A stretch of DNA of 64,000 nucleotides from Buttiauxella gaviniae (GTDB taxonomy: Bacteria > Pseudomonadota > Gammaproteobacteria > Enterobacterales > Enterobacteriaceae), in assembly GCF_040786275.1 (NCBI RefSeq), contig NZ_JBFMVT010000002.1, positions 310,001-374,000 on the forward strand, given 5' to 3'. The position numbers and the translations under genes are program-made. Within the stretch, counting starts at the first letter, position 1. Each line of letters starts with the position of its first letter. This document shows positions 1,551 to 38,938 of the stretch, piece after piece. The notes under the pieces are model-generated. The model searched no databases, had not been told where the DNA came from, and saw only the letters and a list, made by a program, of their open reading frames with translations.

Positions 1551-1860
1551 TAACCACCTGCCCCTCTTCCTGGTCCATAAACACGGCATAGGAGAGTGCC
1601 CCTTCGCGCTGATTGCGCTGCTGGAGCATCTCTTTGCTTAATTCATCCCGTTTATGGCGCACCATTTGATGGACGTAGCTATGAACTTGCTGAAGCGTTC
1701 TCATCGCTTCACGCTTTTGATCAGAGATCTCACGTCCATGCATGCTGACCAGCGAGGCGGCAATGTCGCTATCCAACTGTTGGATTCTTTCCCAGTCTTG
1801 ACGCTTGCCCGCCGCGGCGAGCGCCCGCGTCTGCCAGTCAAGTAACTGCAAATCATCCAT
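1543..1860 (-). CDS. FliT-like flagellar chaperone (LafD)
   Basis: A 105-residue, charged and probably all-helical protein between fliS and fliK, the position of FliT/LafD in lateral flagellar loci. FliT chaperones the cap protein FliD and in peritrichous systems also modulates class-2 activation. There is no strong motif, so the call rests on size, helical character and context. It overlaps fliS by 8 bases upstream and fliK by 8 bases downstream, so the three genes are probably translated as a coupled set. Confidence 0.6.
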   Translation of the reverse strand: MDDLQLLDWQTRALAAAGKRQDWERIQQLDSDIAASLVSMHGREISDQKREAMRTLQQVHSYVHQMVRHKRDELSKEMLQQRNQREGALSYAVFMDQEEGQVVNE

Positions 1861-2248
1861 GGCGTTTACCCATTTCGTCCCAGCCTTCGCGCAGTTCGGT
1901 CAGAATGGTTTCCACTTCTTCAATGGCGGCGACGGACAAATTATTGCTGCCGTCATACAGGCGATAGACGCAGTAGTCGTACAAATTGGCGAGATTTTTT
2001 GCCAGTTCGCCGCCTTTTTCGTAGTCCAGCGCGCTGGTCAAGGCATTGAGAATATCGATGCACTTATTGATGCTTTGCGCCTTGCGCTCATAGCGTTTCG
2101 CTTCGATATGGCTTTTGGCTCGTACCAGTTCGTCGGTTAAGCCGTTGAACAGCATAAGCACCAACTGATGCGGCGTTGCTGCCGCCACCTGCGCTGCCAT
2201 ATCTGACTCATAAAAGTCGCCGAACCCTTCCTGGGTGTTTCCGTACAT
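1853..2248 (-). CDS. fliS: Flagellin export chaperone FliS (LafC)
   Basis: 131 residues, the normal FliS length. The N-terminus carries the FliS hallmark 'YESDMAAQVAAATPHQLVLMLFNGLTDELVRAKSHIE', followed by helices containing 'LTSALDYEKGGELAKNLANLYDYC'. FliS binds the C-terminal D0 helix of flagellin in the cytoplasm, prevents premature polymerisation and delivers it to FlhA. It lies 13 bases after fliD and overlaps the FliT-like gene. A single FliS presumably serves all five flagellins, whose last 69 residues are identical. Confidence 0.93.
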   Translation of the reverse strand: MYGNTQEGFGDFYESDMAAQVAAATPHQLVLMLFNGLTDELVRAKSHIEAKRYERKAQSINKCIDILNALTSALDYEKGGELAKNLANLYDYCVYRLYDGSNNLSVAAIEEVETILTELREGWDEMGKRHG

Positions 2249-2261
2249 AGAGATTTCTTCC

Positions 2262-3563
2262 TTAAACTAAGCCAAACATACTGGCGGTGTTGTTCATCTG
2301 CTGTAATACGCTCTGCATGCGGGTGAACTGCTGCAAATAGCGGTTGTAAGCCGTGTCATAGCGGGTACTGATTTTGTCGCTGCGATCGCTTAATTCCGTT
2401 TCGCGGCGGCGGTTGGTTTCTTCGCGGCTTTTGATTTCCCCGTTGAGTCCCACATACTTATCCAGAGATTTGTCCATTTTGCGCAACAATCCATTACTGC
2501 CATTGAACAGCGTGTTCAGCTTGCCCGGATCCTCAGTAAGCTTCTCTTTAAGCTTGTCATTATCAAGCTTTAGCTTGCCGTCTTTATCCGCGCTAACGCC
2601 GAATTGCGTAATATCCAACCCTTCAATAGATGTACGTAACATTTCGTTGAGTTCACGACGCAATGAGCTAATTCCTGCATCACCAGCAAAGGCTCCGCGA
2701 TCGCTACTGCTAGAACCTGAAGCAGTCAGTTCATTTAATGAACTCAACATTGTGTTATAGGCTTCAACAAAGCTATTAACCTGGGATGTCGTCTCACTGA
2801 CATCGATCCCAATATTAATACGCAACGGGCTATCGCCTGCTTTGTGAGTCTGATTAAGGTCAATCGTGACCCCATCGATCAAATCTTTTAGGGTGTTTGT
2901 GGTGCCAGTTATACGCAGGCCACTACCCGATTCACCTAACCAGACTACAGAATCCTGTGCCTGAGTAAGCGTGCTGACTCCCCCTTGCGTAATCTCTGGC
3001 GGGGCAGTCAACTTAATTTCATTCTCAGCTCCGCTGTTATCACTGCTCAGCATAAGGCGAACTTCACCTCCGCTACGCACTAATGACGCAGTCACACCAG
3101 GATTATCATCTGAACCATTAATGGCCTTTGCCAGGCTGGAGAGGCTATCAACCTTATCCATATCAATGGTCAGCGTTTTATTATTAATTGTGATATCTAG
3201 ATTGCCGGTGGCGCTTGCGATTGTGCTGTCATCTAGTTTGTCGAATGCAACCTGATGCGCAGACGCAAGTTGCTCAATAAAAAGGTTATAAGTGCCTTTA
3301 CGTGCATCGGAAGTGGTCGTCGCAGAGACCATATTTTCCACACTCATCGTGGCGCTGGTTTTCAGCATTCCGGCATTGGTTTTATTTAAATTGCTCAGTG
3401 CCGTGCGAAACGTACTTAATCCACTTTTGAGCGATTTAAGTGCTGTTTGTTGAGCGGTTAATCTCGCCTGCTGTGTTTTTAACTGACTTTTTAGCGCCTG
3501 CACGTCATAGCCAGCTAACTGTGTAGCCATTGACTGAGGGTCAATACTGCTGAAATCGCTCAT
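2262..3563 (-). CDS. fliD: Flagellar filament cap protein FliD (LafB)
   Basis: 433 residues. The FliD N-terminal helical region ('ALKSQLKTQQARLTAQQTALKSLKSGLSTFRTAL') is followed by a central beta region and a C-terminal region with 'FGVSADKDGKLKLDNDKLKEKL' and the terminal coiled coil ending 'MQSVLQQMNNTASMFGLV'. FliD caps the filament tip and catalyses flagellin folding. It is first in the fliD-S-T-K-L run. A Shine-Dalgarno GGGAG lies 5 bases before the ATG. The central third has lower GC than the flanks, as is common for surface-exposed filament parts. Confidence 0.93.
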   Translation of the reverse strand: MSDFSSIDPQSMATQLAGYDVQALKSQLKTQQARLTAQQTALKSLKSGLSTFRTALSNLNKTNAGMLKTSATMSVENMVSATTTSDARKGTYNLFIEQLASAHQVAFDKLDDSTIASATGNLDITINNKTLTIDMDKVDSLSSLAKAINGSDDNPGVTASLVRSGGEVRLMLSSDNSGAENEIKLTAPPEITQGGVSTLTQAQDSVVWLGESGSGLRITGTTNTLKDLIDGVTIDLNQTHKAGDSPLRINIGIDVSETTSQVNSFVEAYNTMLSSLNELTASGSSSSDRGAFAGDAGISSLRRELNEMLRTSIEGLDITQFGVSADKDGKLKLDNDKLKEKLTEDPGKLNTLFNGSNGLLRKMDKSLDKYVGLNGEIKSREETNRRRETELSDRSDKISTRYDTAYNRYLQQFTRMQSVLQQMNNTASMFGLV

Positions 3564-3597
3564 CCATTCTCCCTGGCGCTGTGCTAATCCTTTTTAT

Positions 3598-3625
3598 GAA
3601 TTAGCAATATTCATGCCAAAATTAA
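3598..3625 (-). promoter_or_regulatory. Candidate lateral sigma-28 promoter of fliD (weak match)
   Basis: Reading leftward, TTAATTTT, 12 bases, GCTAATTC. The -35-like half is identical to that of the flagellin genes and has the same spacing. The -10-like half differs from the GTCGCTTT seen there. It lies about 35 bases before fliD. Confidence 0.4.
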
Positions 3626-3689
3626 ATTTTAAGTATTTCAAGTGGTTAGAAACCATAAGGAAGGATTATTTCCGCCCACCGGAAATAAA

Positions 3690-3715
3690 GAGGAAAACAC
3701 CGCCGGAGCGGTGTT
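3690..3715 (-). terminator. Rho-independent terminator of flagellin copy 1
   Basis: An inverted repeat AACACCGC/GCGGTGTT with a 4-base loop (3696-3715) is followed, reading leftward, by TTTTCCTCTTT. A second hairpin, TTATTTCCG/CGGAAATAA (3666-3688), lies immediately downstream. Together they separate the flagellin array from fliD. Confidence 0.75.
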
Positions 3716-3723
3716 ATGAGACG

Positions 3724-4632
3724 TTAACCTAGCAGGGACATCACCATGCCTGACATGCTGTTGGCTTGTTTCAGCATCGACATGCTGGTCTGCGCCAGCA
3801 TCTGGTTACGGGTCATGTTGGTTGCTTCGGAAGCAAAGTCAGCATCACGAATATTGCCCAGGGCCAGGGTAGTGTTATCTTTCATATTCGCGAGGTTAGC
3901 GGAGGTATGGCCCAGGCGGTTGATATTGGCACCTAATGTTGAGCGAACTGTGCCGACAGTATCCAGAGCTGTGGTAATAGTATCAATAGCAGCCCCACTC
4001 CCTGTACTGAGATTGATTGCAGCAACCCCCGCTGTTGTTGTTGTAAATCCAAATGCCTTATCAAGTTTATCCATAAGGTCAGTGGTACCACCTGTACCCT
4101 GTTTTGTGAGATCTAATTTGAGTGATTCAGATTTATCAGCACCAATCTGAAAAGCCATTTCTTTACCTAGCTTTCCGCCATCTACAGTGAATGTTGTACC
4201 ATTCGTCCCCATTGAAAAAATCAGACTTTCTCCACCAAATTTGGTTTGCGTCAGAATGTTTTTCAATTCTTTATTCAGCTCATCTGACTCTGCCTGCAAT
4301 GCATCGCGCTCGTTAGTACCGTTAGTATCGTTTGCCGCCTGAGTAGCCAGATCCTTCATGCGGTACAGGATGTTGGTGACTTCATCAAAAGCGCCTTCTG
4401 CACTCTGCAACATCGCAGTCGCATCAGAGACGTTACGCTGGGCAACACCCATGCCATTAACCTGGCCCTGTAAACGAGTCGCAATCTGCAGGCCTGCCGC
4501 ATCATCAGCCGCAGAGTTAATACGCTTGCCCGTTCCCAGACGCTCCATGGCTGTAGACAGAATTGAGTTGGACTTATTCAGCGCATTGGTGGAAGACATC
4601 GCTGCACCGCTGGTGAAAATAGATAAAGCCAT
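3724..4632 (-). CDS. lafA: Lateral flagellin, copy 1 of 5 (central class C)
   Basis: 302 residues, the longest of the array and last in transcription order. Residues 1-104 and the last 69 residues form the D0/D1 helical core and match the other four copies almost exactly. The middle (about 105-233) belongs to no other copy's class: it begins 'GTNERDALQAESDELNKEL' and continues 'TKFGGESLIF'. Flagellin polymerises into the filament; the central region faces outward. Short length means a small D2 region and no D3. It is preceded by the shared promoter (4683-4710) and followed by its own terminator. Confidence 0.95.
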   Translation of the reverse strand: MALSIFTSGAAMSSTNALNKSNSILSTAMERLGTGKRINSAADDAAGLQIATRLQGQVNGMGVAQRNVSDATAMLQSAEGAFDEVTNILYRMKDLATQAANDTNGTNERDALQAESDELNKELKNILTQTKFGGESLIFSMGTNGTTFTVDGGKLGKEMAFQIGADKSESLKLDLTKQGTGGTTDLMDKLDKAFGFTTTTAGVAAINLSTGSGAAIDTITTALDTVGTVRSTLGANINRLGHTSANLANMKDNTTLALGNIRDADFASEATNMTRNQMLAQTSMSMLKQANSMSGMVMSLLG

Positions 4633-4682
4633 ATACTGCTCCTTGTGATTTCGGGTAACGCCTGTGCGCCCTGTACCTCCTT

Positions 4683-4710
4683 AAAGCGACATTGCCCACG
4701 ATAAAATTAA
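4683..4710 (-). promoter_or_regulatory. Shared sigma-28-like promoter, flagellin copy 1
   Basis: Reading leftward, TTAATTTT, 12 bases, GTCGCTTT, about 50 bases before the ATG. The same element precedes all flagellin copies and flgM, where the first half reads TAAAGTTT, the textbook sigma-28 -35. Confidence 0.65.
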
Positions 4711-4741
4711 ACCCTGATTTGTATTTCATCGCCCGGAAAAC

Positions 4742-4771
4742 AAAAAAAGCCCCCGTACAACGGGAGCTTTT
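4742..4771 (-). terminator. Rho-independent terminator of flagellin copy 2
   Basis: Reading leftward, a stem AAAGCTCCCG/CGGGGGCTTT with a 4-base loop, followed by a run of T. Confidence 0.85.
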
Positions 4772-4800
4772 GCGTAATACAACAGAACGTGCCGGCGAAA

Positions 4801-5682
4801 TTAGCCCAGCAGGGACATCACCATGCCTGACATGCTGTTGGCCTGTTTCAGCATCGACATACTGGTCTGCGCCAGCATCTGGTTACGGGTCATGTTGGTT
4901 GCTTCGGAAGCAAAGTCAGCATCACGAATATTGCCCAGGGCCAGGGTGGTGTTGTCTTTCATATTCGCGAGGTTAGCGGAGGTATGACCCAGACGGTTGA
5001 TGTTGGCACCTAATGCAGAACGAACACCACCTACATTATCGAGTGCAGTCTGTACATTATCCATGAGCGTGGTTATCTTACCGAGATCGGCAGTTCCCGT
5101 ACCGGTAGCAATATCCAGGTCAAAACCAGTTAAAGAAGTAACTGTTGTTTCCAATGCTTTTCCAGCACCAGCATTTAGATCCAATTCTAATTTTTCGCTT
5201 GCCCCTGCACCAATCTGAAAATTTAATTTCCCAGCTAATCTTCCACCTGTCGCTGCAGTACCATCTCCAAATAACACATCACCAGCATATTTAGTATTGG
5301 TCATAATATTGGTTAACTCGGCCTGCAACTCGGTCAACTCAGCTTTGACCGCTGTACGATCATTTTTGCTGTTAGTGTCATTCGCTGCCTGAGTAGCAAG
5401 GTCTTTCATGCGGTATAGAACATTGGTGACTTCATCAAAGGCGCCTTCCGCCGTCTGCAACATCGCAGTCGCATCAGAGACGTTACGCTGCGCGACACCC
5501 ATACCATTAACCTGACCCTGTAAACGAGTCGCAATCTGCAGACCTGCCGCATCATCAGCCGCAGAGTTAATACGCTTGCCCGTTCCCAGACGCTCCATGG
5601 CTGTAGACAGAATTGAGTTGGACTTATTCAGCGCATTGGTGGAAGACATCGCTGCACCGCTGGTGAAAATAGATAAAGCCAT
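4801..5682 (-). CDS. lafA: Lateral flagellin, copy 2 of 5 (central class A)
   Basis: 293 residues. The conserved D0/D1 ends carry one change within 1-104 (Val88 in 'VTNVLYRMKDL'). The central region, beginning 'SKNDRTAVKAELTELQAELTN' and continuing 'TKYAGDVLFGDG', is clearly the same class as copy 4 but differs at many positions over the last two thirds. The residues that in enteric FliC contact TLR5 (Arg, Leu and Gln of the 'RMKDLATQ' segment) are kept. It is bounded by two identical 168-base intergenic repeats, so it is probably a monocistronic unit. Confidence 0.95.
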   Translation of the reverse strand: MALSIFTSGAAMSSTNALNKSNSILSTAMERLGTGKRINSAADDAAGLQIATRLQGQVNGMGVAQRNVSDATAMLQTAEGAFDEVTNVLYRMKDLATQAANDTNSKNDRTAVKAELTELQAELTNIMTNTKYAGDVLFGDGTAATGGRLAGKLNFQIGAGASEKLELDLNAGAGKALETTVTSLTGFDLDIATGTGTADLGKITTLMDNVQTALDNVGGVRSALGANINRLGHTSANLANMKDNTTLALGNIRDADFASEATNMTRNQMLAQTSMSMLKQANSMSGMVMSLLG

Positions 5683-5732
5683 ATACTGCTCCTTGTGATT
5701 TCGGGTAACGCCTGTGCGCCCTGTACCTCCTT

Positions 5733-5760
5733 AAAGCGACATTGCCCACGATAAAATTAA
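5733..5760 (-). promoter_or_regulatory. Shared sigma-28-like promoter, flagellin copy 2
   Basis: Reading leftward, TTAATTTT, 12 bases, GTCGCTTT. The spacer is identical to that of copies 1 and 4. Confidence 0.65.
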
Positions 5761-5791
5761 ACCCTGATTTGTATTTCATCGCCCGGAAAAC

Positions 5792-5821
5792 AAAAAAAGC
5801 CCCCGTACAACGGGAGCTTTT
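5792..5821 (-). terminator. Rho-independent terminator of flagellin copy 3
   Basis: A GC-rich stem with 4-base loop and T-run, identical to the element at 4742-4771. Confidence 0.85.
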
Positions 5822-5850
5822 GCGTAATACAACAGAACGTGCCGGCGAAA

Positions 5851-6729
5851 TTAGCCCAGCAGGGACATCACCATGCCTGACATGCTGTTGGCCTGTTTCA
5901 GCATCGACATACTGGTCTGCGCCAGCATCTGGTTACGGGTCATGTTGGTTGCTTCGGAAGCAAAGTCAGCATCACGAATATTGCCCAGGGCCAGGGTGGT
6001 GTTGTCTTTCATATTCGCGAGGTTAGCGGAGGTATGACCCAGACGGTTGATGTTGGCACCCAGCGATGAGCGCATAGTCCCTACCTTATCAAGAGCAGTG
6101 CCTACGTTTGTTATCAATGTTCCGGCATCAGCAGCATTGGTTAAGGCAACCGCAGGTGTCGAAGCTGTACCAAACTTTACAAGTTCAGTCATCACAGCAC
6201 CTTGAGCAGTAGAAAGATCTAATGCCAGTTTCTCATCTTTGCCCGCACCAATTTGGAAATTGATAGCGGCGCCAAGCTTACCTCCGCTTGCAAAAGTGGT
6301 CGCAGCTGCATCAGTAAACAGCGTTTCCCCGGCATAACTGGTTTTAGTCATTATGTTACCCAGTTCTTTAACCAGTTCATTAACTTCCGCACCAATGGCC
6401 GTACGTTCATTGGTCCCATTGGTATCGTTCGCTGCCTGAGTCGCCAGATCCTTCATGCGGTACAAAATGTTGGTGACTTCATCAAAGGCACCTTCCGCCG
6501 TCTGCAACATGGCTGTCGCATCAGAGACGTTACGCTGGGCAACGCCCATACCGTTAACCTGGCCCTGCAGACGCGTAGCGATTTGCAGACCTGCTGCATC
6601 ATCGGCCGCGGAATTGATACGCTTACCCGTTCCCAGACGCTCCATGGCGGTGGACAGGATGCTGTTAGATTTGTTCAGCGCATTGGTGGAAGACATTGCC
6701 GCACCGCTGGTGAAAATAGATAAAGCCAT
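5851..6729 (-). CDS. lafA: Lateral flagellin, copy 3 of 5 (central class B)
   Basis: 292 residues. The ends match the array consensus. The centre, with 'GTNERTAIGAEVNELVKEL' and 'TSYAGETLF', is of the class also found in copy 5. The 5' part of the gene uses more synonymous variants than copies 1, 2 and 4 (for example over 6540-6700), and its upstream spacer is the diverged one, so this 5' end has escaped recent homogenisation. Its 3' end is nearly identical to that of copies 2 and 5. Confidence 0.95.
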   Translation of the reverse strand: MALSIFTSGAAMSSTNALNKSNSILSTAMERLGTGKRINSAADDAAGLQIATRLQGQVNGMGVAQRNVSDATAMLQTAEGAFDEVTNILYRMKDLATQAANDTNGTNERTAIGAEVNELVKELGNIMTKTSYAGETLFTDAAATTFASGGKLGAAINFQIGAGKDEKLALDLSTAQGAVMTELVKFGTASTPAVALTNAADAGTLITNVGTALDKVGTMRSSLGANINRLGHTSANLANMKDNTTLALGNIRDADFASEATNMTRNQMLAQTSMSMLKQANSMSGMVMSLLG

Positions 6730-6897
6730 ATACTGCTCCTTGTGATTTTGGGTAACGCCTTTGCGCCCTGTACTTCCTTAAAGCGACACCACCGAAAATA
6801 AAATTAAATCCTTTTTTGGAATTATCCATCTGATATATACAAAGAGCGCCCGTATAAATGGAACTCTTTCGTAACACAAACGAACGATTTGTTGAGA
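6730..6897. repeat. Diverged 168-base spacer between flagellin copies 4 and 3
   Basis: It has the same length as the other three spacers, and the promoter and ribosome site are conserved, but the middle has drifted. The terminator hairpin of copy 4 (about 6841-6870) retains only an AAAGAG/CTCTTT outer stem with mismatches inside. Transcription may therefore read through from copy 4 into copy 3. Confidence 0.85.
6780..6807 (-). promoter_or_regulatory. Shared sigma-28-like promoter, flagellin copy 3
   Basis: Reading leftward, TTAATTTT, 12 bases, GTCGCTTT. The two boxes are conserved while the 12-base spacer differs from its neighbours, which supports functional selection on the boxes. Confidence 0.68.
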
Positions 6898-7785
6898 TTA
6901 GCCCAGTAGGGACATCACCATGCCTGACATACTGTTAGCCTGCTTCAGCATCGACATACTGGTCTGCGCCAGCATCTGGTTACGGGTCATGTTGGTGGCT
7001 TCGGAAGCAAAGTCAGCATCACGAATATTGCCCAGGGCCAGGGTGGTGTTGTCTTTCATATTCGCGAGGTTGGCGGAGGTGTGACCCAGGCGGTTGATAT
7101 TTGCACCTAAGGCGGATCGAATACTTCCAACATTATCCAATGCAGTTTGTACATCACCCATTAATTTCTGCGTAGCTGTCACATCTGTAGCCGCAACACC
7201 AGTATCAATTCCCAACTCGAGAGCAGTGCCTGTGAAAGAAGACACGGCTGTACTTAATTTATTACCCGTATTCAATGCAAGTGTCAGAGTTTCTGATGAG
7301 GCTGAACCAATCTGAAAATTCAATGAACCGCCTAATTTTCCTCCAGTTGTTGCATTGTTTGTCCCATCACCAAATAGCGTTTCACCAGCATATTTTGTAT
7401 TTGTCATAATGTTGGTTAATTCTGACTTTAGCTCAGTCAGTTCGGCTTTTACTGCCGTACGATCATCTTTACCATTAGTATCATTCGATGCTTGGGTCGC
7501 CAAGTCCTTCATGCGGTACAGGATGTTGGTGACTTCATCAAAGGCGCCTTCCGCCGTCTGCAGCATAGCGGTCGCATCAGAGACGTTACGCTGGGCAACA
7601 CCCATGCCATTAACCTGGCCCTGTAAACGAGTCGCAATCTGCAGGCCTGCCGCATCATCAGCCGCAGAGTTAATACGCTTGCCCGTTCCCAGACGCTCCA
7701 TGGCTGTAGACAGAATTGAGTTGGACTTATTCAGCGCATTGGTGGAAGACATCGCTGCACCGCTGGTGAAAATAGATAAAGCCAT
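6898..7785 (-). CDS. lafA: Lateral flagellin, copy 4 of 5 (central class A)
   Basis: 295 residues. The conserved ends carry Ser100 instead of Ala. The central region, with 'GKDDRTAVKAELTELKSELTN' and 'TKYAGETLFGDG', is class A like copy 2. It then diverges in the exposed part, which is rich in Thr, Ser and Gly. The 5' end and leader are nearly identical to those of copies 1 and 2. The likely monomer export signal and FliS-binding tail are unchanged. Confidence 0.95.
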   Translation of the reverse strand: MALSIFTSGAAMSSTNALNKSNSILSTAMERLGTGKRINSAADDAAGLQIATRLQGQVNGMGVAQRNVSDATAMLQTAEGAFDEVTNILYRMKDLATQASNDTNGKDDRTAVKAELTELKSELTNIMTNTKYAGETLFGDGTNNATTGGKLGGSLNFQIGSASSETLTLALNTGNKLSTAVSSFTGTALELGIDTGVAATDVTATQKLMGDVQTALDNVGSIRSALGANINRLGHTSANLANMKDNTTLALGNIRDADFASEATNMTRNQMLAQTSMSMLKQANSMSGMVMSLLG

Positions 7786-7835
7786 ATACTGCTCCTTGTG
7801 ATTTCGGGTAACGCCTGTGCGCCCTGTACCTCCTT

Positions 7836-7863
7836 AAAGCGACATTGCCCACGATAAAATTAA
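7836..7863 (-). promoter_or_regulatory. Shared sigma-28-like promoter, flagellin copy 4
   Basis: Reading leftward, TTAATTTT, 12 bases, GTCGCTTT, with the ATG about 50 bases downstream. Confidence 0.65.
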
Positions 7864-7894
7864 ACCCTGATTTGTATTTCATCGCCCGGAAAAC

Positions 7895-7924
7895 AAAAAA
7901 AGCCCCCGAACAACGGGAGCTTTT
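7895..7924 (-). terminator. Rho-independent terminator of flagellin copy 5
   Basis: Same hairpin as at 4742-4771 with one loop substitution, followed by a T-run. Confidence 0.85.
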
Positions 7925-7953
7925 GCGTAATACAACAGAACGTGCCGGCGAAA

Positions 7954-8835
7954 TTAGCCCAGCAGGGACATCACCATGCCTGACATGCTGTTGGCCTGTT
8001 TCAGCATCGACATACTGGTCTGCGCCAGCATCTGGTTACGGGTCATGTTGGTTGCTTCGGAAGCAAAGTCAGCATCACGAATATTGCCCAGCGCCAGGGT
8101 GGTGTTATCTTTCATATTCGCGAGGTTAGCGGAGGTATGACCCAGACGGTTGATGTTGGCACCCAGCGATGAGCGCATAGTCCCTACACTATCAAGAGCA
8201 GCCCCAACGTTTGTCAGTAATGTTCCTGCTTTAGTCGCATCAGTAACATCTGTAGCTGGAGTTCCCGGGTTACCAACCGCTGAAAGTTTAGTCATTACGT
8301 CGCCCAATTGGGTCGCTACGTTTAGAGTCAGTTTCTCATCTTTACTCGCACCGATCTGGAAGTTCATCCCTGCTGCAACTGAAAATTTTCCAGCTGCGGT
8401 AAAAGCAGTGCCATTAGCCGCAAAAAGATTTTCTCCCGCATAGCTGGTGTTACCCATGATATTTCCGAGCTCTTTAACCAGCTCATTAACTTCCGCACCG
8501 ATGGCCGTACGTTCATTAGTACCATTGGTATCGTTCGCCGCCTGAGTCGCCAAGTCTTTCACACGATAAAGAATATTGGTCACTTCATCAAAAGCCCCTT
8601 CCGCCGTCTGCAACATCGCGGTCGCATCTGAAACGTTACGCTGGGCAACACTCATGCCATTAACCTGGCCCTGTAAACGAGTCGCAATCTGTAGACCAGC
8701 CGCATCATCAGCCGCAGAGTTAATGCGTTTCCCGGTACCCAGGCGCTCCATCGCGGTGGACAGGATACTGTTAGATTTGTTGAGAGCGTTAGTGGAAGAC
8801 ATTGCCGCGCCGCTGGTAAAAATTGAAAGTGCCAT
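7954..8835 (-). CDS. lafA: Lateral flagellin, copy 5 of 5 (central class B, promoter-proximal)
   Basis: 293 residues, first of the array in transcription order. The ends carry two private changes: Ser62 for Gly and Val92 for Met in the 'LYRVKDLATQ' segment. The centre, with 'GTNERTAIGAEVNELVKEL' and 'TSYAGENLFAANG', matches the class of copy 3. Its 5' leader is unique, unlike the spacers in front of the other four, so it probably preserves the ancestral lafA control region next to lafZ. Confidence 0.95.
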   Translation of the reverse strand: MALSIFTSGAAMSSTNALNKSNSILSTAMERLGTGKRINSAADDAAGLQIATRLQGQVNGMSVAQRNVSDATAMLQTAEGAFDEVTNILYRVKDLATQAANDTNGTNERTAIGAEVNELVKELGNIMGNTSYAGENLFAANGTAFTAAGKFSVAAGMNFQIGASKDEKLTLNVATQLGDVMTKLSAVGNPGTPATDVTDATKAGTLLTNVGAALDSVGTMRSSLGANINRLGHTSANLANMKDNTTLALGNIRDADFASEATNMTRNQMLAQTSMSMLKQANSMSGMVMSLLG

Positions 8836-8890
8836 TTGTTCTCTCCTTGAGAATTATGCTGTGAGACAGGGTTTGCCTATGTACTAAGCA

Positions 8891-8918
8891 AAAACGACAC
8901 TATTGATAAAAAAATTAA
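8891..8918 (-). promoter_or_regulatory. Shared sigma-28-like promoter, flagellin copy 5
   Basis: Reading leftward, TTAATTTT, 12 bases, GTCGTTTT. It lies in otherwise unique sequence, so conservation here is independent of the array repeats. Confidence 0.68.
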
Positions 8919-9377
8919 GTACTGATGAAAAAAATACTCACCTGTAAATAATTCTCTTTCAACCAAAAAATCTAAATCATTGGCACGATTAATTTCCACA
9001 AAAATGGACATTGTTAATCAATGAGCATTAAAAATAACAATGCGACAATTTATTTCACCAACTTAAATCCCAATTAATAAAAAATTTGTACAAAATAATA
9101 TAAAAGCTATCATATCAATTAACCGTAAGTGCCCATGCAATTAAAATCATTTAATTATTTGATTTTATTGTATTTTTTATTTTGATGCATATTTTTAGCG
9201 CATCCAATATAATAACCAAATAAAAATAAACCCATTCTCAATGGTTGAAGAATTTTACCATCATAAAATTAAACACTTTCGTTACACTCGCCTTGTACAA
9301 CCTTAACCTGAAGCAGTGAAATCTGTTTTTCCCATTTTTTTGTGATTGATTCAATACACCTTTAATTTTGAAATATT
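8919..9377. other. AT-rich divergent control region between flagellin copy 5 and lafZ
   Basis: About 460 bases without a credible gene, markedly richer in A and T than its surroundings, especially 8930-9300. It must hold the lafZ promoter and any upstream control of flagellin copy 5. I see no confident operator. The composition is of the kind bound by H-NS, which is inference. Confidence 0.6.
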
Positions 9378-10292
9378 ATGAACAAATCGCGTTGTTCTGT
9401 TAATAATTGGTTGCTGGATTATGCCTCCGGCGCCATCGTTCATCGTCACTCCGGGGAAGTTCGCCGGCTGGGTGAATACCAACTCAAACTGCTGGATTGT
9501 CTTATTCAGCACGCAGGTCAAACGTTATCCCGGAATGAACTAACGAGCCTTGTGTGGGAGCGCCGGGTCATTGGCGATAACAGCCTGTCGAATGCGATTC
9601 ATGCCCTGCGTTCGGCGCTGGAAGATGACGGTAAGCAGCAGCGGGTGATCAAAACCATTCCCAAAAAAGGTTACCTGCTCGACCCTGAGTTTTGCCAGCC
9701 CATTGAGCCTGAAGAGGTAACCGCGCCGGAACCCGCGCCCGCGGTGCAGGCTGTACAGGTTTCTTTGCCCGCGCTGGAATTACCCGAACCCATGCCGACT
9801 CAGCACAAACCCGCCGAGCAAATCAACGATCCCCCAACTCCACGCAGGTCATTTGCCATTTTTGGTTGGCCGATGCTGGCCACGTTACTGCTAACGTGTT
9901 TGATTCTATCCTCTGGCTGGTTTTTCCTGTTCCATACCGCTTGTGATGAGATGCGTGCACAGGAGCAGGTGAAAAATCAGTACAGCAATATTCGTGTTTT
10001 CCGCATTGCCGCCGCCGTGGATGAGATAAACGATGAGGACATCGTGAAATTGAAATCCCTTCTCAAGACGTTAAATCAAGAACTTATCGCTCATGATGCC
10101 TGGATGACGGTGTATTACCGCACCGACGAACAGGTGCTGAATTACACCTTTTCCATCGAAACCGCCTGCGCAAGCCAGCAGTTGGCAATGACGCTTTATC
10201 ACTGGCGGGTTGATAACCAGAAGCTCACTAAAATCATTAATGACGAGACCGAGAGAAAATTAAATGAACTGGCTCAGTGTAAGAAATCTTAA
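9378..10292 (+). CDS. lafZ: ToxR/CadC-like membrane-bound transcriptional regulator (LafZ)
   Basis: 304 residues. The N-terminal winged-helix domain of the OmpR/ToxR type spans about residues 20-112 ('LGEYQLKLLDCLIQHAG', 'SLSNAIHALRSALEDD', wing 'RVIKTIPKKGYLL'). A Pro/Glu-rich linker (115-155) leads to a single membrane helix (about 158-182) and a periplasmic domain of about 120 residues with three cysteines, possible disulfide partners. Such proteins sense periplasmic or membrane cues and bind DNA directly. The gene faces away from the flagellins and overlaps a small downstream membrane-protein gene by 29 bases. In Flag-2 loci lafZ has this same position. The regulated promoters are unknown; the flagellin array is the obvious candidate. 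Confidence 0.85.
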   Translation: MNKSRCSVNNWLLDYASGAIVHRHSGEVRRLGEYQLKLLDCLIQHAGQTLSRNELTSLVWERRVIGDNSLSNAIHALRSALEDDGKQQRVIKTIPKKGYLLDPEFCQPIEPEEVTAPEPAPAVQAVQVSLPALELPEPMPTQHKPAEQINDPPTPRRSFAIFGWPMLATLLLTCLILSSGWFFLFHTACDEMRAQEQVKNQYSNIRVFRIAAAVDEINDEDIVKLKSLLKTLNQELIAHDAWMTVYYRTDEQVLNYTFSIETACASQQLAMTLYHWRVDNQKLTKIINDETERKLNELAQCKKS

Positions 10293-10725
10293 TATTAGCC
10301 TTACTGCCATTCTGGTTGTTTTTCTTGGCGTGATGCATCTGCACACCTCTTCGGCAAATGCCAAAAGCGGGCCGATCAAGGGCAGAATGGAGATTGGGTT
10401 TTACGATTTAATGTCCGATCAGCGGGAAGTTTATAATGCGCAGATTATGGATATGGATGAGGCATTGCTGTTTACGCTCACACGCACTGAGGACCCCATG
10501 TTTGTGCTGCGTGGCAGGCTTGATGAAACTCGCCGCAAGCATGGGCGCGTGTTTTATGACTATGTGCCGATTCGTTATAGCAACCCGGAAAACTACAAAC
10601 TGGTGTTCAGTTTTATCGATTTCCTGCGCCACAACACGGTGTGGGTCTACCCAATGACCGTCAATAAAAAACCCCTGGTCATTGGGCAGAGCGGAATGAT
10701 GTTTTTATTTCCGCTGAACGCGTAA
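10264..10725 (+). CDS. Small single-pass membrane/periplasmic protein paired with LafZ
   Basis: 153 residues. One N-terminal hydrophobic segment (about 10-28, uncleaved anchor or signal) is followed by a soluble periplasmic-type domain without cysteine, with 'MEIGFYDLMSDQREVYNAQI' and 'RVFYDYVPIRYSNPENYKL'. I do not recognise the family. The start overlaps the 3' end of lafZ by 29 bases and is preceded by GAGAGA, so the two are co-translated. This layout resembles ToxR-ToxS and TcpP-TcpH pairs, where the second protein stabilises or tunes the regulator's periplasmic domain. That role is inferred from context only. Confidence 0.8.
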   Translation: MNWLSVRNLNISLTAILVVFLGVMHLHTSSANAKSGPIKGRMEIGFYDLMSDQREVYNAQIMDMDEALLFTLTRTEDPMFVLRGRLDETRRKHGRVFYDYVPIRYSNPENYKLVFSFIDFLRHNTVWVYPMTVNKKPLVIGQSGMMFLFPLNA

Positions 10726-10731
10726 CCGCCC

Positions 10732-11754
10732 TTAGCGCAGCAGGTTACTCACCGTGCCCTGCTGCAAATTCGCCTGGCCGCCTAATGCACGGGCGGTGGC
10801 CGCATAATCCTGATGGCTATTTTGCAGATGCGTTCTGAGCGCTCGGGCGTGTTCCAGCGCCTGCTCAGGCTGATACTGGGTCGCCATTTCATTGATTCGA
10901 CGACGAACATTATCCTGGTGGCTGTATAGCTGACCGCGCTGTTGGGTCAGTTGCTCCAGGGCTTGCTGAACCTCGCCCTGAAATTCGCGGATCATCCCCG
11001 GCTGCTGTGCCAGTTGGCTGAGCGTATCAGTCACCGCAGGCTCCGGGCGCGCCAACAGAGCGGTAAATTCATTCCCGGAAAAACGCTTTCCTTCCCCACG
11101 CACGCTAAGCTGGCTGCTGACCTGCGGCCAGTTGGCTTCATCCACGCTAAATACCAGCCCCTGCTGTTTATCCACACTGGCATGCACGCCAAAACGCCCT
11201 AACCCCTGATTCAGGCGCATCACGTCCTGGCGCGGCGTGGCTCCGGCCTCGAACGATACCGCTACCATTTCGCGTCGCGGTCCCGCCAGGGAAAAAATCA
11301 GCGTTTCGCTTTCATCGTTTTGCAGTAAACGCTGTGCGGCGGGAAGCGTAAAATGCACCTGCGCGGTTTGTTCAGGATCGACCGACAAATGCCGGTCTAC
11401 CGTGCCCGCGCTCAACTGTGGGCGCTGATTTAACAGCGTTGAAAGAGAACGCGCCGCATCCTGAGTCAGTTCGCCGCGTCGTGCGCCATGATTTGCGGCA
11501 TAGCGCAGTTGCAAAAGCTGGCTTTCAACCTGGGATAAATAGTTATCCGCCTGCTGGACCGAGGTAAGCTGCTGATTCAACTGAACGTTGTAGCGCAGCG
11601 GGCGCGTGGAGATGAGCGGCGATTCCGGGAAGCGGTTATCGCCCTGACGAATGCGCGGAGCCTCCGGCTGGCGCACCGCTTGTGTATTCTTCACTCCCCC
11701 GCTATTGAGAGGAGTGGTTAAGGAGAGTCCTGCCTGGTTTAATCCAACCTGCAT
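10732..11754 (-). CDS. lafW: LafW, hook-associated-type protein of lateral flagella
   Basis: 340 residues, 5 bases downstream of flgL and convergent with the lafZ operon. The N-terminus has no signal peptide and is polar, fitting export through the flagellar type III apparatus. The middle (about 130-225) has a pattern like flagellin-hook inserts: 'MRLNQGLGRFGVHASVDKQQGLVFSVDEANW'. The C-terminal 100 residues are Gln-rich and helical, with coiled-coil character. Position beside flgL and the name LafW match Flag-2 loci; its exact place in the filament-hook junction is not established. Confidence 0.7.
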   Translation of the reverse strand: MQVGLNQAGLSLTTPLNSGGVKNTQAVRQPEAPRIRQGDNRFPESPLISTRPLRYNVQLNQQLTSVQQADNYLSQVESQLLQLRYAANHGARRGELTQDAARSLSTLLNQRPQLSAGTVDRHLSVDPEQTAQVHFTLPAAQRLLQNDESETLIFSLAGPRREMVAVSFEAGATPRQDVMRLNQGLGRFGVHASVDKQQGLVFSVDEANWPQVSSQLSVRGEGKRFSGNEFTALLARPEPAVTDTLSQLAQQPGMIREFQGEVQQALEQLTQQRGQLYSHQDNVRRRINEMATQYQPEQALEHARALRTHLQNSHQDYAATARALGGQANLQQGTVSNLLR

Positions 11755-35647: not shown

Positions 35648-35683
35648 GCCCAACGTCTGGCATCATCAGGCGTTGGGCTTTTA
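35648..35683. terminator. Bidirectional terminator between flhA and the EAL gene
   Basis: An 8-base perfect stem GCCCAACG/CGTTGGGC (35648-35655 with 35671-35678) is followed by TTTTA on the forward strand. It closes the flagellar operon and probably the convergent EAL gene. Confidence 0.8.
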
Positions 35684-36445
35684 GTGAATGTAGTTTTGCA
35701 GGAAATCTAATTTTTTAATCGGACGTGAAAACAGGAACCCCTGAGCCAGCACGACATTATGCTTTAATAGCATTGACGTTTGCCCCATGGTTTCCACCCC
35801 TTCGGCAATAATGGCAGCATTACTTTTCTGCGCTTCGCAGATAATCTCATACGTTTTCTCGCTATTACCGTTTCTCAGGCATTCGCGATCGAGTTTGATA
35901 AATTCACATTCGGCCTGCGCCATCTTATTTTGCACATCATCAAGAGTGCCAATGTCATCCCAGGCAAAAGAGAAACCGGCATTTCGCAGCCGCTGAATAT
36001 TCTCCTCGCCGCTCTGCGCTAATTCTTCCGCCGAACGCGTAATTTCAAAAATGACGGATGCAGCCGGAATGCCATATTCGCTCTGGAGTTGGATGATGTA
36101 TTCAGAAAAGCTTTCGTCGTTTAGCTGATGAGGCGCAAGATTGATGGTTAAGAAGAAGTCGGGTTTCTTCGGCAAGACATCGTGCTGCATAAACTCAAAG
36201 GCTTTCCCGACAATGTATTTTCCTACATTGATAATTCCTTCATTTTCCTCAAGCTGTTGTAAAAATTCCGTCGGCTTTATGATGCTGTGACGGTGCACGC
36301 CCCGTAACAGCACTTCGGCCCCAACACACTGAAAGGTCGATAAATTAAAAATGGGTTGCACGAAGAAATCGACCACCGAAGAAAAATTAAGGTGGGTGAT
36401 TTTTTTTAGAATAATAGTTGAACTCATATCGCTCACGTTGCTCAT
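35681..36445 (-). CDS. EAL-domain cyclic-di-GMP phosphodiesterase (first)
   Basis: 254 residues, a stand-alone EAL domain with no membrane segment. The metal and catalytic positions are present: E in 'AEVLLRG' (EVL variant of EAL), N in 'INLAP', E in 'FEITR', DD in 'WDDIGT', K in 'IKLDRE', E in 'AEGVET', and Q in 'AQGFLFSRP'. The loop-6 motif is DIGTLDD instead of DFGTGYS, as in many free-standing enteric EAL proteins, so activity is likely but not certain. Convergent with flhA and 41 bases downstream of a second EAL gene in the same direction. Confidence 0.85.
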
Positions 36446-36486
36446 TCCTTATAACGCTAACTCTTTTCCACTGCGAAAAGCGGGGA

Positions 36487-37269
36487 TTAATGACTGGTTT
36501 CTTCGGAAGAATACCGATAACGTTGTGCGAAAGTGCGGGACTCAACCGGGGGAGAATAAAAATACCCCTGGCAGGTGGTGACATCCTGCTCAAGCAGCCA
36601 TTCTCGCTGCCAGAGATATTCAACCCCTTCGGCAACCAGTTGTAATTTATTGCGCTTGCACGCCTGGATAATCTCTTTTGCCAGCGGCAAACTCTCTTTA
36701 TTGAGCAGGCTACGGTCGAGTTTAATCACGTTGCTGCAAAATTCGTGACCGTTTTTATTTAAATCATCAGGGTGACTAATATCATCCCACGCCAGCACAA
36801 AGCCATTTTGTTGTAACCAACGGGCATTTTCCCGGCCTTGTGCACTCAGAGGGATTTTTGTTTCAGTAATTTCAATCGTGATTTTATTGACTGGATAACC
36901 GCATGCCTCGGCAACCTTTTTTATTTTCTCAACCGTAGTGCGGTCGTTTATTTCGACCGGGGAGAAATTACTGCTGAGCATAAAATGCCGCTCCTGATGA
37001 AGCCCGTGCTCTTTAGCAAAAAGGAGCGCGCTTTGCAGAACATAAACGCCCACCTTGCAAATATCGCTGTTTTGCTCAAGTTCTGCGATAAAGCGATCCG
37101 GTGGGATCACTTTACCTTCCACAAGGCCGCGTACCAGGGCCTCGGCCCCCAGGCAGCGGCCATTCGTCATGTCCATAATCGGCTGCAAATAGACCGTGAG
37201 GACGCGCTCCGGGTAACCCGCAGAGATGTGTTCTACTATTTTTCTGGCATCCTCATGTTTAGTCGTCAT
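36487..37269 (-). CDS. EAL-domain cyclic-di-GMP phosphodiesterase (second)
   Basis: 260 residues, cytosolic, EAL domain only. It carries canonical 'EALVRG', 'NFSP', 'IEITETK', 'WDDISH', 'IKLDRSLL', 'AEGVEY' and 'CQGYFYSPP', so all catalytic positions are kept. It is clearly distinct in sequence from the first EAL protein and not a recent duplicate. It lies between the first EAL gene and the GGDEF gene, all on the same strand with short gaps. Confidence 0.86.
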   Translation of the reverse strand: MTTKHEDARKIVEHISAGYPERVLTVYLQPIMDMTNGRCLGAEALVRGLVEGKVIPPDRFIAELEQNSDICKVGVYVLQSALLFAKEHGLHQERHFMLSSNFSPVEINDRTTVEKIKKVAEACGYPVNKITIEITETKIPLSAQGRENARWLQQNGFVLAWDDISHPDDLNKNGHEFCSNVIKLDRSLLNKESLPLAKEIIQACKRNKLQLVAEGVEYLWQREWLLEQDVTTCQGYFYSPPVESRTFAQRYRYSSEETSH

Positions 37270-37333
37270 TTTTTTCCCTTTTGTGATTAATGTAAAATAC
37301 GAAACTGTTGCTGTGCATCACTCATTCCATTGC

Positions 37334-38938
37334 TTAATCACAAGAACTTAAAATCACATTTTTACCGGACTGTTTAGCCGCGTATAAAGTCTTATCCGCT
37401 TTTATTATGACGTCCTGGGCTGTCTCGCCCTCTTTCCATTTGGCAATGCCGCAACTGAATGTGACGCTCAGGGTTGTCTCGCGCCATTGACGTTGAGAGA
37501 TGACCTGTCGCCAGGTTTCCATCAGATTAAAATACTCCTCGTAGTCGTTACCCGGGAATAAAGCCACCAGTTCTTCACCGCCAAAGCGATAAATATGATA
37601 TTTCGGCTCAAGAATCGCCTTCCCGGCATTGCTTACATATTTCAGCACAGAGTCACCGACAACATGACCGAAGGCATCGTTAATACTTTTAAAGTTATCC
37701 AGATCCAAAATCGCCAGATAAAACGGTTCATTATGAGCAATTAACTCATCGAGTCTTGTATCGAAATTGCGGCGTGAGCCAACGCCGGTTAACGCATCTT
37801 CCCCTGAAATTTTTCGCGCTTCCTCAAGCTCAAGGTGGCTCTTTTTAATGTTGTTATAAACCCGCTCCAGGTTGTGTTCTTGCTCTTCAACATTAATGCC
37901 ATTAACCCCCATATAGAGTCGGCTGATAATACTTTTTATATAGACACGGCACAGGCATACCAGAACGGTATAAATCACCAGACACAGGGAAATAATAATA
38001 ATTAATGTTTGTGGCGCTTTACCAATATAATCATCATACATTTCTTTATCGACGATGGTAAAAGCGACCCAATAGGGATCGGAAAACGAGTGATAAAATA
38101 TAAATTTTTCTGTTTCGGCATCATAAAAATTGCCTTCTAAATCTATCGCTTTATCAATCCATCTTTGGGGTATTTTCTGATGGAAAATCTCGCGGAAATT
38201 AGAATGCATAATGACGGTACCGTCTTGTGCGGCAACCAGGAATTTCCCTTCAAACGGCGTAACGATATCTTGTAGAGGTGTACTCATGGAGTACAGATCA
38301 AGATCGAAAGCGATATTCCCGTACTTCAAAAGCTCTTCATCAAAAAGATCCATACTGACCGTAATCGTAACGGAATGGTTATTCGAGTTATGCAGGTCGG
38401 GTAACAGATCGTTGTAAGGCTCTGAATAATGGATTCCATTCTTTTGTTTTACCCCTGGGTACCAGGGACGTTGGCTTGGTACGAACCCCTTTAATTGTAT
38501 TTTGGGGTAGATGCGATAGTGGTCATGGATGTCAGAGATTATCGCTGCATCAAAAAATGTTAGCGTATTGACAATCGATGCCAAAATAGCGTTAAGCGTA
38601 TCATGATCTTCCTCAATAAAACCCTTGGCACCATTCGGCGTAATTCGGCTATTGAGAATCTGAAATACAATGCCAATCTCTTCCAGTTGGCGATTAACAC
38701 TTTCCATTGCGGTGTTATGCGTAAAGCGGGAAAGATTATTTTCAAAGGTGTTTATATTGTCTTTTTGAATATAATCAAATGACCATAGCGACACTAACAT
38801 AAACGGCAACAGCATGACAAAAAACAACAGACTTAATAGCCTGTTAACCGTGAATACTTTTTTGCTTCCTTTCATTTCCTGATTCCATTCTGAATATGGC
38901 GTTACGTGAAACTGATGCCCTCGACGCCAGATCTTCAC
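37334..38938 (-). CDS. Membrane diguanylate cyclase with extracytoplasmic sensor
   Basis: Up to 534 residues from GTG at 38938; ATG at 38875 (513 residues, start 'MKGSKKVFTVNRLL') is an alternative with a typical membrane-anchor N-terminus. A helix at about 30-52 is followed by a Cache-like periplasmic sensor region ('FVPSQRPWYPGVKQKNGIHYSEPYND'), a second membrane helix (about 310-335) and a GGDEF domain with active 'RFGGEELVALFPG'. No RxxD inhibitory site precedes it. It makes cyclic-di-GMP in response to an external cue. Facing the flagellar locus and beside two phosphodiesterases, it may set the swim/stick decision for this flagellum. Confidence 0.88.
   Translation of the reverse strand: MKIWRRGHQFHVTPYSEWNQEMKGSKKVFTVNRLLSLLFFVMLLPFMLVSLWSFDYIQKDNINTFENNLSRFTHNTAMESVNRQLEEIGIVFQILNSRITPNGAKGFIEEDHDTLNAILASIVNTLTFFDAAIISDIHDHYRIYPKIQLKGFVPSQRPWYPGVKQKNGIHYSEPYNDLLPDLHNSNNHSVTITVSMDLFDEELLKYGNIAFDLDLYSMSTPLQDIVTPFEGKFLVAAQDGTVIMHSNFREIFHQKIPQRWIDKAIDLEGNFYDAETEKFIFYHSFSDPYWVAFTIVDKEMYDDYIGKAPQTLIIIISLCLVIYTVLVCLCRVYIKSIISRLYMGVNGINVEEQEHNLERVYNNIKKSHLELEEARKISGEDALTGVGSRRNFDTRLDELIAHNEPFYLAILDLDNFKSINDAFGHVVGDSVLKYVSNAGKAILEPKYHIYRFGGEELVALFPGNDYEEYFNLMETWRQVISQRQWRETTLSVTFSCGIAKWKEGETAQDVIIKADKTLYAAKQSGKNVILSSCD

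Follow-up and report, generated by a model that had tools for sequence, protein, structure and literature searches.

The lafA array and its locus

Five flagellin genes stand side by side on the chromosome of Buttiauxella gaviniae and are the lafA genes of a second (lateral) flagellum, the Flag-2 locus. They were studied within a 64,000-nucleotide stretch of DNA, here called the window, whose positions are used throughout. All five lie on the minus strand. Copy 5 (7954..8835; 293 aa, class B middle) is transcribed first, followed by copy 4 (6898..7785; 295 aa, class A), copy 3 (5851..6729; 292 aa, class B), copy 2 (4801..5682; 293 aa, class A) and, last, copy 1 (3724..4632; 302 aa, class C). 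The open reading frames confirmed the first-pass annotation of five complete flagellins with starts 1047-1056 bases apart: start-to-start distances are 1050, 1056, 1047 and 1050 bases, and all four spacers measure 168 nt. Every copy has a start codon and an intact, full-length frame, and matches Pfam Flagellin_N (PF00669) and Flagellin_C (PF00700). An AlphaFold2 model of copy 3 (mean pLDDT 80, pTM 0.62), used for this point alone, predicts a short D0/D1-type flagellin.

The array is flanked by genes for the filament cap (FliD/LafB, 2262..3563, minus strand; Pfam FliD_N and FliD_C) and the flagellin chaperone (FliS/LafC, 1853..2248, minus strand; Pfam FliS). On the other side lies a divergent DNA-binding regulator (9378..10292, plus strand; Pfam PF00486 Trans_reg_C), a candidate LafZ named after the description in passages of PMC6993521. 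Open-frame sigma28-type, MotA and MotB genes are found just left of the window and an open-frame FliL at its edge. Cap, chaperone, sigma28 and motor genes thus adjoin the five flagellins, the arrangement by which lafA is assigned to a second cluster. Further Pfam matches within the window comprise FlgA, FlgD, FlgE, FlgH, FlgI, FlgK, FlgN, FliE to FliJ, two FliM/N types, FliP, FliR, FlhB, FlhA and FliK; FliQ, FlgB/C and FlgM were not individually identified among the Pfam matches at the locus. The lateral system that holds the five genes is apparently intact. A more distant flagellin is encoded elsewhere in the genome (G000:C2:3758814). Megablast of positions 3400-9400 gave no match to E. coli genomes. 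The array-bearing contig spans 4,640,089 bases of a two-contig, 4.76-Mb assembly, and, given this large contig and five middles that all differ, the five copies are unlikely to result from collapse or false duplication during assembly.

A sigma28-like promoter motif, TTAATTT-N11-RTGTCGYTTT, precedes each gene on the minus strand, as located by a motif search of the genome (copy 5, 8891..8918; copy 4, 7836..7863; copy 3, 6780..6807; copy 2, 5733..5760; copy 1, 4683..4710). Because visual inspection of this array and of nine relatives supplied the motif, its counts are partly circular: without mismatch it has exactly five sites in 4.76 Mb, one ahead of each lafA, and at 13 or more of 17 positions it lies upstream of 50 of 74 other lafA genes versus 2.2 expected. 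Upstream regions were taken from 79 of 80 genes (copy 3 of L099 was left out for masked bases), 74 of them outside the window. When up to two mismatches are allowed, the genome holds 12 sites versus 16 for a reversed control pattern, and only the five perfect ones stand out. Copies 1, 2 and 4 share identical motifs, leaders and gene starts; the leader of copy 5 is different and that of copy 3 slightly so. A sigma70 promoter scan returned 6 sites, fewer than the 9.9 found in shuffles.

Intrinsic-terminator-like hairpins follow copy 5 (7898..7924), copy 3 (5795..5821), copy 2 (4745..4771) and copy 1 (3696..3715), all on the minus strand. These are the four sites counted from a terminator scan that gave 11 versus 5.9 in shuffles, the other seven being plus-strand sites inside genes. 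The scan found no terminator in the spacer between copies 4 and 3, so these two genes could be co-transcribed.

Homogenised junctions and old central classes

Three of the four junctions have been made alike by recombination between the copies, whether through gene conversion or through unequal crossing-over. The unit of homogenisation is a junction module, consisting of a gene end, the 168-bp spacer carrying a terminator-like hairpin and a promoter motif, and the next gene start. Module J32 (5543..6060, minus strand; the last 210 nt of copy 3, the spacer and the first 140 nt of copy 2) and module J21 (4493..5010, minus strand; the corresponding parts of copies 2 and 1) are identical over 518 bp, the sum of the identical end lengths, 210 and 140, and a 100% identical spacer. 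Module J54 (7571..8091, minus strand) extends over 521 nt relative to J21 with one mismatch, at 7909, which leaves identical blocks of 182 and 338 nt. The three non-coding spacers are therefore 99-100% identical, whereas the J43 spacer (6730..6897, minus strand) is diverged, at 74% to the other three.

Silent sites tell the same story at the gene ends. The dS of the C end is 0-0.42 among the five copies, and 0-0.04 among copies 2, 3 and 5, compared with 0.63-1.90 to six copies from five other genomes. The C ends of the five copies form one clade (SH-aLRT 96 in a tree of 38 of the 80 genes; 0.94 with all 80). A runs test on 130 polymorphic junction sites gave p of about 1e-4 for J54/J32, J54/J21 and J32/J21; it takes sites as exchangeable although constraint varies along the gene, a problem lessened by the spacer and silent sites. 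Breakpoints are sharp, with identical tracts ending inside genes, in agreement with the gene conversion proposed in the first-pass annotation. Its claim of identical C-terminal residues in all five was also borne out, over 70 residues rather than 69.

The gene starts behave differently. Residues 1-104, described earlier as nearly identical, are so in protein, with five differing positions, but not in DNA: at synonymous sites the starts of copies 5 and 3 have diverged from those of the other copies (dS 0.77-1.40), so here the likeness holds at the protein level only and mainly reflects purifying selection. Three other Buttiauxella carry a single lafA, and the N end of copy 5 is closer to these genes (dS 0.71-0.75) than to its paralogs in the array (1.22-1.40); its leader is 74-83% identical to theirs versus 45-51% to the internal leaders. 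Copy 5 thus lacks the within-genome likeness at its start, and its start region and leader are of the Buttiauxella single-lafA type. The earlier proposal of concerted evolution of the ends therefore stands for silent sites and spacers, also when compared with between-genome pairs of equal middle divergence, with the junction module at three of the four junctions as its unit and the starts of copies 5 and 3 set apart.

The middles have stayed in old classes. In the middle-region tree (38 of 80 genes), copies 2 and 4 pair (SH-aLRT 98), copies 3 and 5 form a group that also takes in the first copy of strain RIT714 (94; branching order within the group not fixed), and copy 1 of the array sits by itself at the tip of a long branch, having no close relative in the set; the B-A-B-A-C classes assigned from the sequence alone are thereby recovered. 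A link between class A and copy 2 of RIT714 is weak, being absent from the best tree though not rejected (lnL difference 0.56, p-AU 0.47). Middles are 46-54% identical between classes. Within the A and B pairs, dN/dS is 0.29/1.51 and 0.23/1.19, i.e. near 0.2, and the middles of class mates are under purifying selection. Middles are also lower in G+C (0.41-0.48) than ends (0.52-0.54). Duplication of a B-A pair, previously suggested from the alternating order, is compatible with the class order and would be an old event because middle dS is 1.19 and 1.51. Tree tests did not reject a monophyletic grouping of all five copies, either for the start (p-AU 0.087) or for the middle (p 0.32), so the conflict between region trees is suggestive only.

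Lateral flagellin arrays in other genomes

Three of 11 congeners examined carry one comparable lafA and eight none, giving one, one, one and five copies in the four Flag-2-bearing Buttiauxella genomes. Tandem lafA, defined as hits within 1.4 kb, occurred in at least 12 of 53 matching genomes in one search and at least 12 of 39 in another; both scored up to six hits per genome with an E value no higher than 1e-60, and would miss larger arrays or more distant copies. Aeromonas caviae has two lateral flagellin genes, lafA1 and lafA2, versus the five here. De Maayer et al. 2020 (PMC6993521), in the passages available, report multi-copy lafA at the same locus in 156 of 592 strains, with up to five copies, and give Flag-2 for 38% of 8 Buttiauxella strains. 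Up to five lafA genes per locus are thus already published, and the present array is a larger example of a known phenomenon. The recombination, spacers and promoters of the copies, analysed here, are not treated in those passages, and the three other Flag-2-bearing Buttiauxella are single-copy in our set. The earlier remark that most lateral systems carry one or two flagellins is consistent with these published counts and with our tandem counts.

For a wider comparison, 80 of 86 flagellins found were kept, of which 54 belong to 24 multi-copy arrays and 26 are single genes. The six left out were five genes of genomes taken as duplicates, namely L032, L035, L036 (by identity) and L041 (by matching lengths of gene and contig), and the gene of L116, shortened by a stop; loci L047 and L110 yielded no gene under the ORF filter. 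Trees of the start, C end and middle were built for 38 of the 80 genes and assessed by SH-aLRT and p-AU. In 21 of the 24 arrays, the middle has accumulated more silent divergence than either end (the exceptions being L080, L084 and L089), which makes the pattern a general one. C ends are also less diverged within genomes than between them when pairs are matched for middle divergence (p 9e-5, 4e-9 and 9e-9 in the three bins with middle pS of at least 0.5), p-values that are optimistic because arrays from one genus are not independent. At middle pS below 0.3, within- and between-genome pairs are alike. For arrays L079 and L088, the tree joins middles from different genomes (92 and 92), whereas starts and ends group by genome.

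A blended filament and its alternatives

Taken together, we consider it rather probable that the five separately promoted lafA genes, their junctions homogenised and their middles kept different, are expressed together as a blended filament. Each gene would be its own transcription unit, activated by the sigma28-type factor of the locus once the hook is complete. With common assembly ends, chaperone and cap, the five subunits would enter one filament as a mixture, which is probably a blend of several proteins. Copies 1, 2 and 4 should agree in timing and rate of synthesis because their motifs, leaders and gene starts are identical, which would favour a blend over a strictly ordered filament; copies 5 and 3, with differing leaders, may differ in timing or amount. 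The middles may be kept different because a mixed surface adjusts the mechanics of the filament or makes it harder for a phage, predator or host to recognise.

Known systems offer partial parallels, as described in passages of the papers cited. In Stenotrophomonas maltophilia, the tandem genes fliC1-fliC2-fliC3 likewise have near-identical ends and different centres, and all three contribute to the filament; however, they form one operon driven from upstream of fliC1, unlike the motif per gene seen here (PMC8998449). Shewanella putrefaciens combines FlaA and FlaB in a filament via separate promoters, as proposed here, but one of its promoters is FliA-independent and yields a basal segment, whereas the five motifs here are of one type (PMC6299084). 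In Alteromonadales, another order, flagellin (fla) is listed as one of the genes that have evolved in concert within genomes, recurrently and over a long time (PMC6053082); in the present array, homogenisation affects ends and spacers but spares the middles. Phase variation by a Hin/FljBA-type invertase finds no invertible promoter segment in 3400-9400, where inverted repeats are short and imperfect (none sizeable, the longest 20 nt at 80%), and silent-cassette antigenic variation finds no silent copy, since each of the five is full length and has both a start codon and a promoter motif.

The array might instead be a reservoir for surface variation, in which one copy dominates and recombination at junctions or gene ends puts other middles behind its promoter or alters copy number. 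Near-identical modules of ~520 bp are good substrates for homologous recombination, between-class middles are highly diverged, and copy number differs among the Flag-2-bearing genomes of the genus. Against this, none of the five copies lacks an intact frame or a promoter motif, no sizeable inverted repeat exists in 3400-9400, and middle dS above 1 within classes implies slow turnover; with one genome to represent the species, we regard a reservoir as unlikely. Between the two options raised in the first-pass annotation, a mixed-composition filament thus appears to fit better than an antigenic reservoir, given a promoter motif and intact frame per copy, the purifying selection on class-mate middles and the lack of sizeable inverted repeats. 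Gene dosage, with copies kept for the large flagellin demand of lateral flagella and middle differences incidental, would agree with the identical leaders of copies 1, 2 and 4 and with the frequency of tandem lafA. However, dosage alone should homogenise whole genes, contrary to the divergence of middles between classes and the purifying selection within them, and three congeners with the locus manage with a single copy, making this account quite improbable.

It is very improbable that one gene was recently amplified five-fold and then received foreign middles from other bacteria. The lower G+C of the middles and the isolation of the copy 1 middle would suit such imports, but class mates recur in a repeated B-A order and RIT714 carries a B-like first copy and possibly an A-like second one (the A link being weak), which fits old resident classes; moreover, homogenisation has reached neither junction 4-3 nor the copy 5 start. 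Hardly credible is strong protein-level constraint on flagellin ends alone, with no recombination. It largely accounts for the starts of copies 5 and 3, yet it is already contradicted at three of four junctions, by the near-identity of three non-coding spacers and by C-end dS among copies 2, 3 and 5 far below that between genomes.

Returning to the blended filament, a broader model may be put forward tentatively. Flag-2 arrays across Enterobacterales might evolve at two speeds: junction modules, each with terminator, sigma28 promoter, leader and assembly ends, would recombine, while the surface cassettes that alternate with them would rarely do so and would be maintained as distinct lineages from species to species. 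Such modules would keep any cassette expressible and assembly-ready, and the array would be a built-in device for multi-surface filaments and copy-number change. The array is a clean natural case of recombination and selection acting on different parts of one gene, and the boundary can be placed to the base. Comparing 24 arrays suggests a common mode of upkeep for enterobacterial lateral flagellin families, so that the question of why bacteria keep several flagellins can be put to the test in a non-model bacterium related to common enterobacteria.

Array anatomy and genomic setting

The minus strand of the window carries a head-to-tail array of five complete flagellin genes: lafA copy 5 (7954-8835), transcribed first, followed by copy 4 (6898-7785), copy 3 (5851-6729), copy 2 (4801-5682) and copy 1 (3724-4632). 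Gene starts follow one another at intervals of 1047-1056 bases, with 168 nt in each spacer, and all five copies carry Pfam Flagellin_N and Flagellin_C domains. The ORF coordinates and domains bear out the tandem array described in the first-pass annotation. Its common protein ends are also real: the C-terminal 70 residues are the same in all five proteins, and residues 1-104 vary at five positions.

The array sits in a second flagellar cluster (Flag-2) that, judged by gene content, is apparently intact. The window holds hook, rod, ring and export genes, a sigma54-type activator, the FliD cap, the FliS chaperone and FliK. FliL marks its left edge; directly beyond that edge come MotA, MotB and a sigma28-type factor. 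In this cluster no ORF was individually assigned to FliQ, FlgB/C or FlgM, no Pfam glycosyltransferase was matched among the window proteins scanned, and ORFs 1543-1860, 10264-10725 and 10732-11754 of the Flag-2 stretch have no Pfam match. The host assembly consists of two contigs (4.76 Mb), the window falling within the 4,640,089-base contig. Divergent from the flagellins, overlapping ORFs at 9378-10725 (+) encode a 304-aa Trans_reg_C DNA-binding protein and a 153-aa protein without a Pfam match, possibly a ToxR-like regulator pair of the lateral system. Two adjacent EAL-domain proteins and a GGDEF protein, encoded at 35681-38938 (-), directly adjoin the locus, which suggests cyclic-di-GMP control next door.

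Homogenised junctions and diverged middles

The proposed homogenisation of gene ends holds at three of the four junctions, each comprising the end of one gene, the spacer and the start of the next. J54 (between copies 5 and 4), J32 and J21 are nearly alike, spacers included, whereas J43 has diverged and its spacer has 74% identity to the others. J32 and J21 are identical over 210 + 168 + 140 = 518 nt, and J54 has a single mismatch to J21 in 521 nt. Over 130 polymorphic junction sites, a runs test gave p about 1e-4 for J54/J32, J54/J21 and J32/J21; no run in a pair with J43 was longer than 4-5 sites (p 0.009-0.086). Silent-site runs, tested over 112 codons, point the same way, with common starts in copies 1, 2 and 4 and common ends in copies 2 and 3 (p about 1e-4 each); none linked copy 3 to copies 1 and 4 (p 0.80 and 0.59). 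Smaller silent runs join copy 5 to copies 1 (p 0.0009) and 4 (p 0.0002) at codons 49-64, to copy 3 at codons 228-251 (p 0.001) and to copy 2 at codons 276-308 (p 0.007).

Near-identity of the starts, also claimed earlier, holds at protein level, but in copies 5 and 3 it does not extend to silent sites. Taken whole, the start regions of these two are at dS 0.77-1.40 to the other copies, so protein identity there reflects mainly purifying selection. The start of copy 5 is at dS 0.71-0.75 to the single lafA of three other Buttiauxella versus 1.22-1.40 to its own neighbours, and its leader, the stretch upstream of the gene start, has 74-83% versus 45-51% identity. The leaders of copies 1, 2 and 4 are identical. 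Monophyly of all five starts was not rejected by a tree test (p 0.087), nor was that of all five middles (p 0.32).

Middle identity is 46-54% between classes A (copies 2 and 4), B (3 and 5) and C (1), rising within class to 66% for the A pair and 70% for the B pair. Within-class dN/dS is about 0.19 in both pairs, so the middles are functional protein and not decaying. The proposed classes are recovered by the middle tree, where copies 2 and 4 form a clade (support 98), copies 3 and 5 cluster with copy 1 of strain RIT714 (support 94), and copy 1 of the window stands alone. This grouping fits the suggested duplication of a B-A pair as the source of the alternating order, but the event would be old, middle dS being at least 1.19 in every copy pair. 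A B-A order common to the array and RIT714 is suggested for its B part and unproven for its A part.

Lateral flagellin arrays in relatives

A lafA match at E 1e-60 or better was found in 4/12 Buttiauxella genomes, with more than one only in the present genome; the loci of G001, G003 and G004 from this genus are 100% identical to B. warmboldiae, B. noackiae and B. massiliensis records. At least two matches within 1.4 kb occurred in 12 of 53 matching genomes in the family sample (392 searched) and 12 of 39 in the order sample (394 searched), the present genome included in both. Among the matches listed, the family's second-largest array, after the present five, has three copies, and the order sample holds one four-copy array.

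Several loci stand out individually. L099 (G611:C20:136500-146000), a four-copy array from another family, has an N run in its second spacer and a GGGGGGCATATGCCCCCC palindrome common to the 3' flanks of copies 2 and 3. One relative has a single lateral flagellin gene, L116 (G229:C7:150589-151425), that is broken by one in-frame TAG stop. Flagellin-like matches number 23 in the 2.2-Mb genome G037 of the order and 14 in the 5.3-Mb G055, some in tandem; the halves of one gene can score separately, so gene numbers are lower, though still large for a genome as small as that of G037. The two lateral flagellins of G364 (L093 and L094) each lie within 300 bases of the end of a different contig, as expected where a homogenised array broke assembly; draft assemblies may understate copy number.

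The window and relatives' loci supplied 24 multi-copy arrays (54 genes) within a tree set of 80 genes. They show that the pattern is not special to this genome. Uncorrected silent divergence averaged 0.48 for middles, against 0.27 for starts and 0.16 for ends, and both ends fell below the middle in 21/24 arrays. Between-genome pairs matched for middle silent divergence (pS) served as the control for within-array pairs. C-end divergence was 0.19 within arrays (n=11) versus 0.60 between genomes (n=1309, p 8.7e-9) at middle pS 0.7-1, 0.19 (n=12) versus 0.56 (n=1131, p 3.6e-9) at 0.6-0.7, 0.13 (n=5) versus 0.48 (n=580, p 9e-5) at 0.5-0.6, and 0.21 (n=5) versus 0.32 (n=88, p 0.026) at 0.3-0.5; below 0.3 the pairs (n=7 and n=12) were alike. 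The nearest relative was an array-mate for 38/54 ends, 32/54 starts and 19/54 middles, and arrays were monophyletic in 15/24, 11/24 and 6/24 cases, respectively. In L079 and L088, middles pair between the two genomes (support 92 each) and ends cluster by genome (94 L088, 83 L079).

Multi-copy lafA is already known, from 156/592 strains and, as here, with up to five copies (De Maayer 2020, PMC6993521). Concerted evolution of flagellins is reported in Alteromonadales (PMC6053082), and flagellins in general are well known to combine conserved ends with centres that are hypervariable and recombine (PMC7018530). Stenotrophomonas tandem flagellins have similar ends and different centres, and all are used in the filament (PMC8998449). 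The anatomy of the array is clearer here than in the available text of these papers. A literature search, with most subscription journals outside its reach, found no study that analyses how the junctions of Flag-2 arrays are homogenised.

Expression and the filament

All five copies are preceded by TTAATTT-N11-RTGTCGYTTT, beginning 78-83 nt before the ATG. The motif was picked on inspection of this array together with nine relatives, which makes its counts partly circular: exactly five genome-wide sites with zero mismatches, 12 with up to two mismatches versus 16 for a reversed control, and at least 13/17 core positions matched upstream of 50/74 other lafA genes versus 2.2 in shuffles. In more distant arrays it shifts to TCAAGT/TAAAGT...GYCG, near the sigma28 consensus, TAAAGTTT-N11-GCCGATAA. 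Terminator-like hairpins lie 3' of copies 5, 3, 2 and 1, and the terminator scan found none after copy 4. With its own motif before each gene and these hairpins, the array looks like separate sigma28 units, the pair 4-3 being uncertain, and all five copies are apparently expressed.

Copy 3 is predicted to fold as a short flagellin, with helices at 6-33, 41-100, 106-129, 173-186 and a long one at 199-291, and strands at 156-159 and 167-170. In structural comparison the model matched best with flagellins from the filaments of Shewanella oneidensis and Roseburia hominis. This layout places the variable stretch (about 105-222) in the predicted second outer-domain helix, strands and loop, parts that point outward in solved flagellar filaments. 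Subunits of five kinds that share their assembly surfaces and differ in their outer ones would build one blended filament, which we infer to be the best reading of the five lafA copies.
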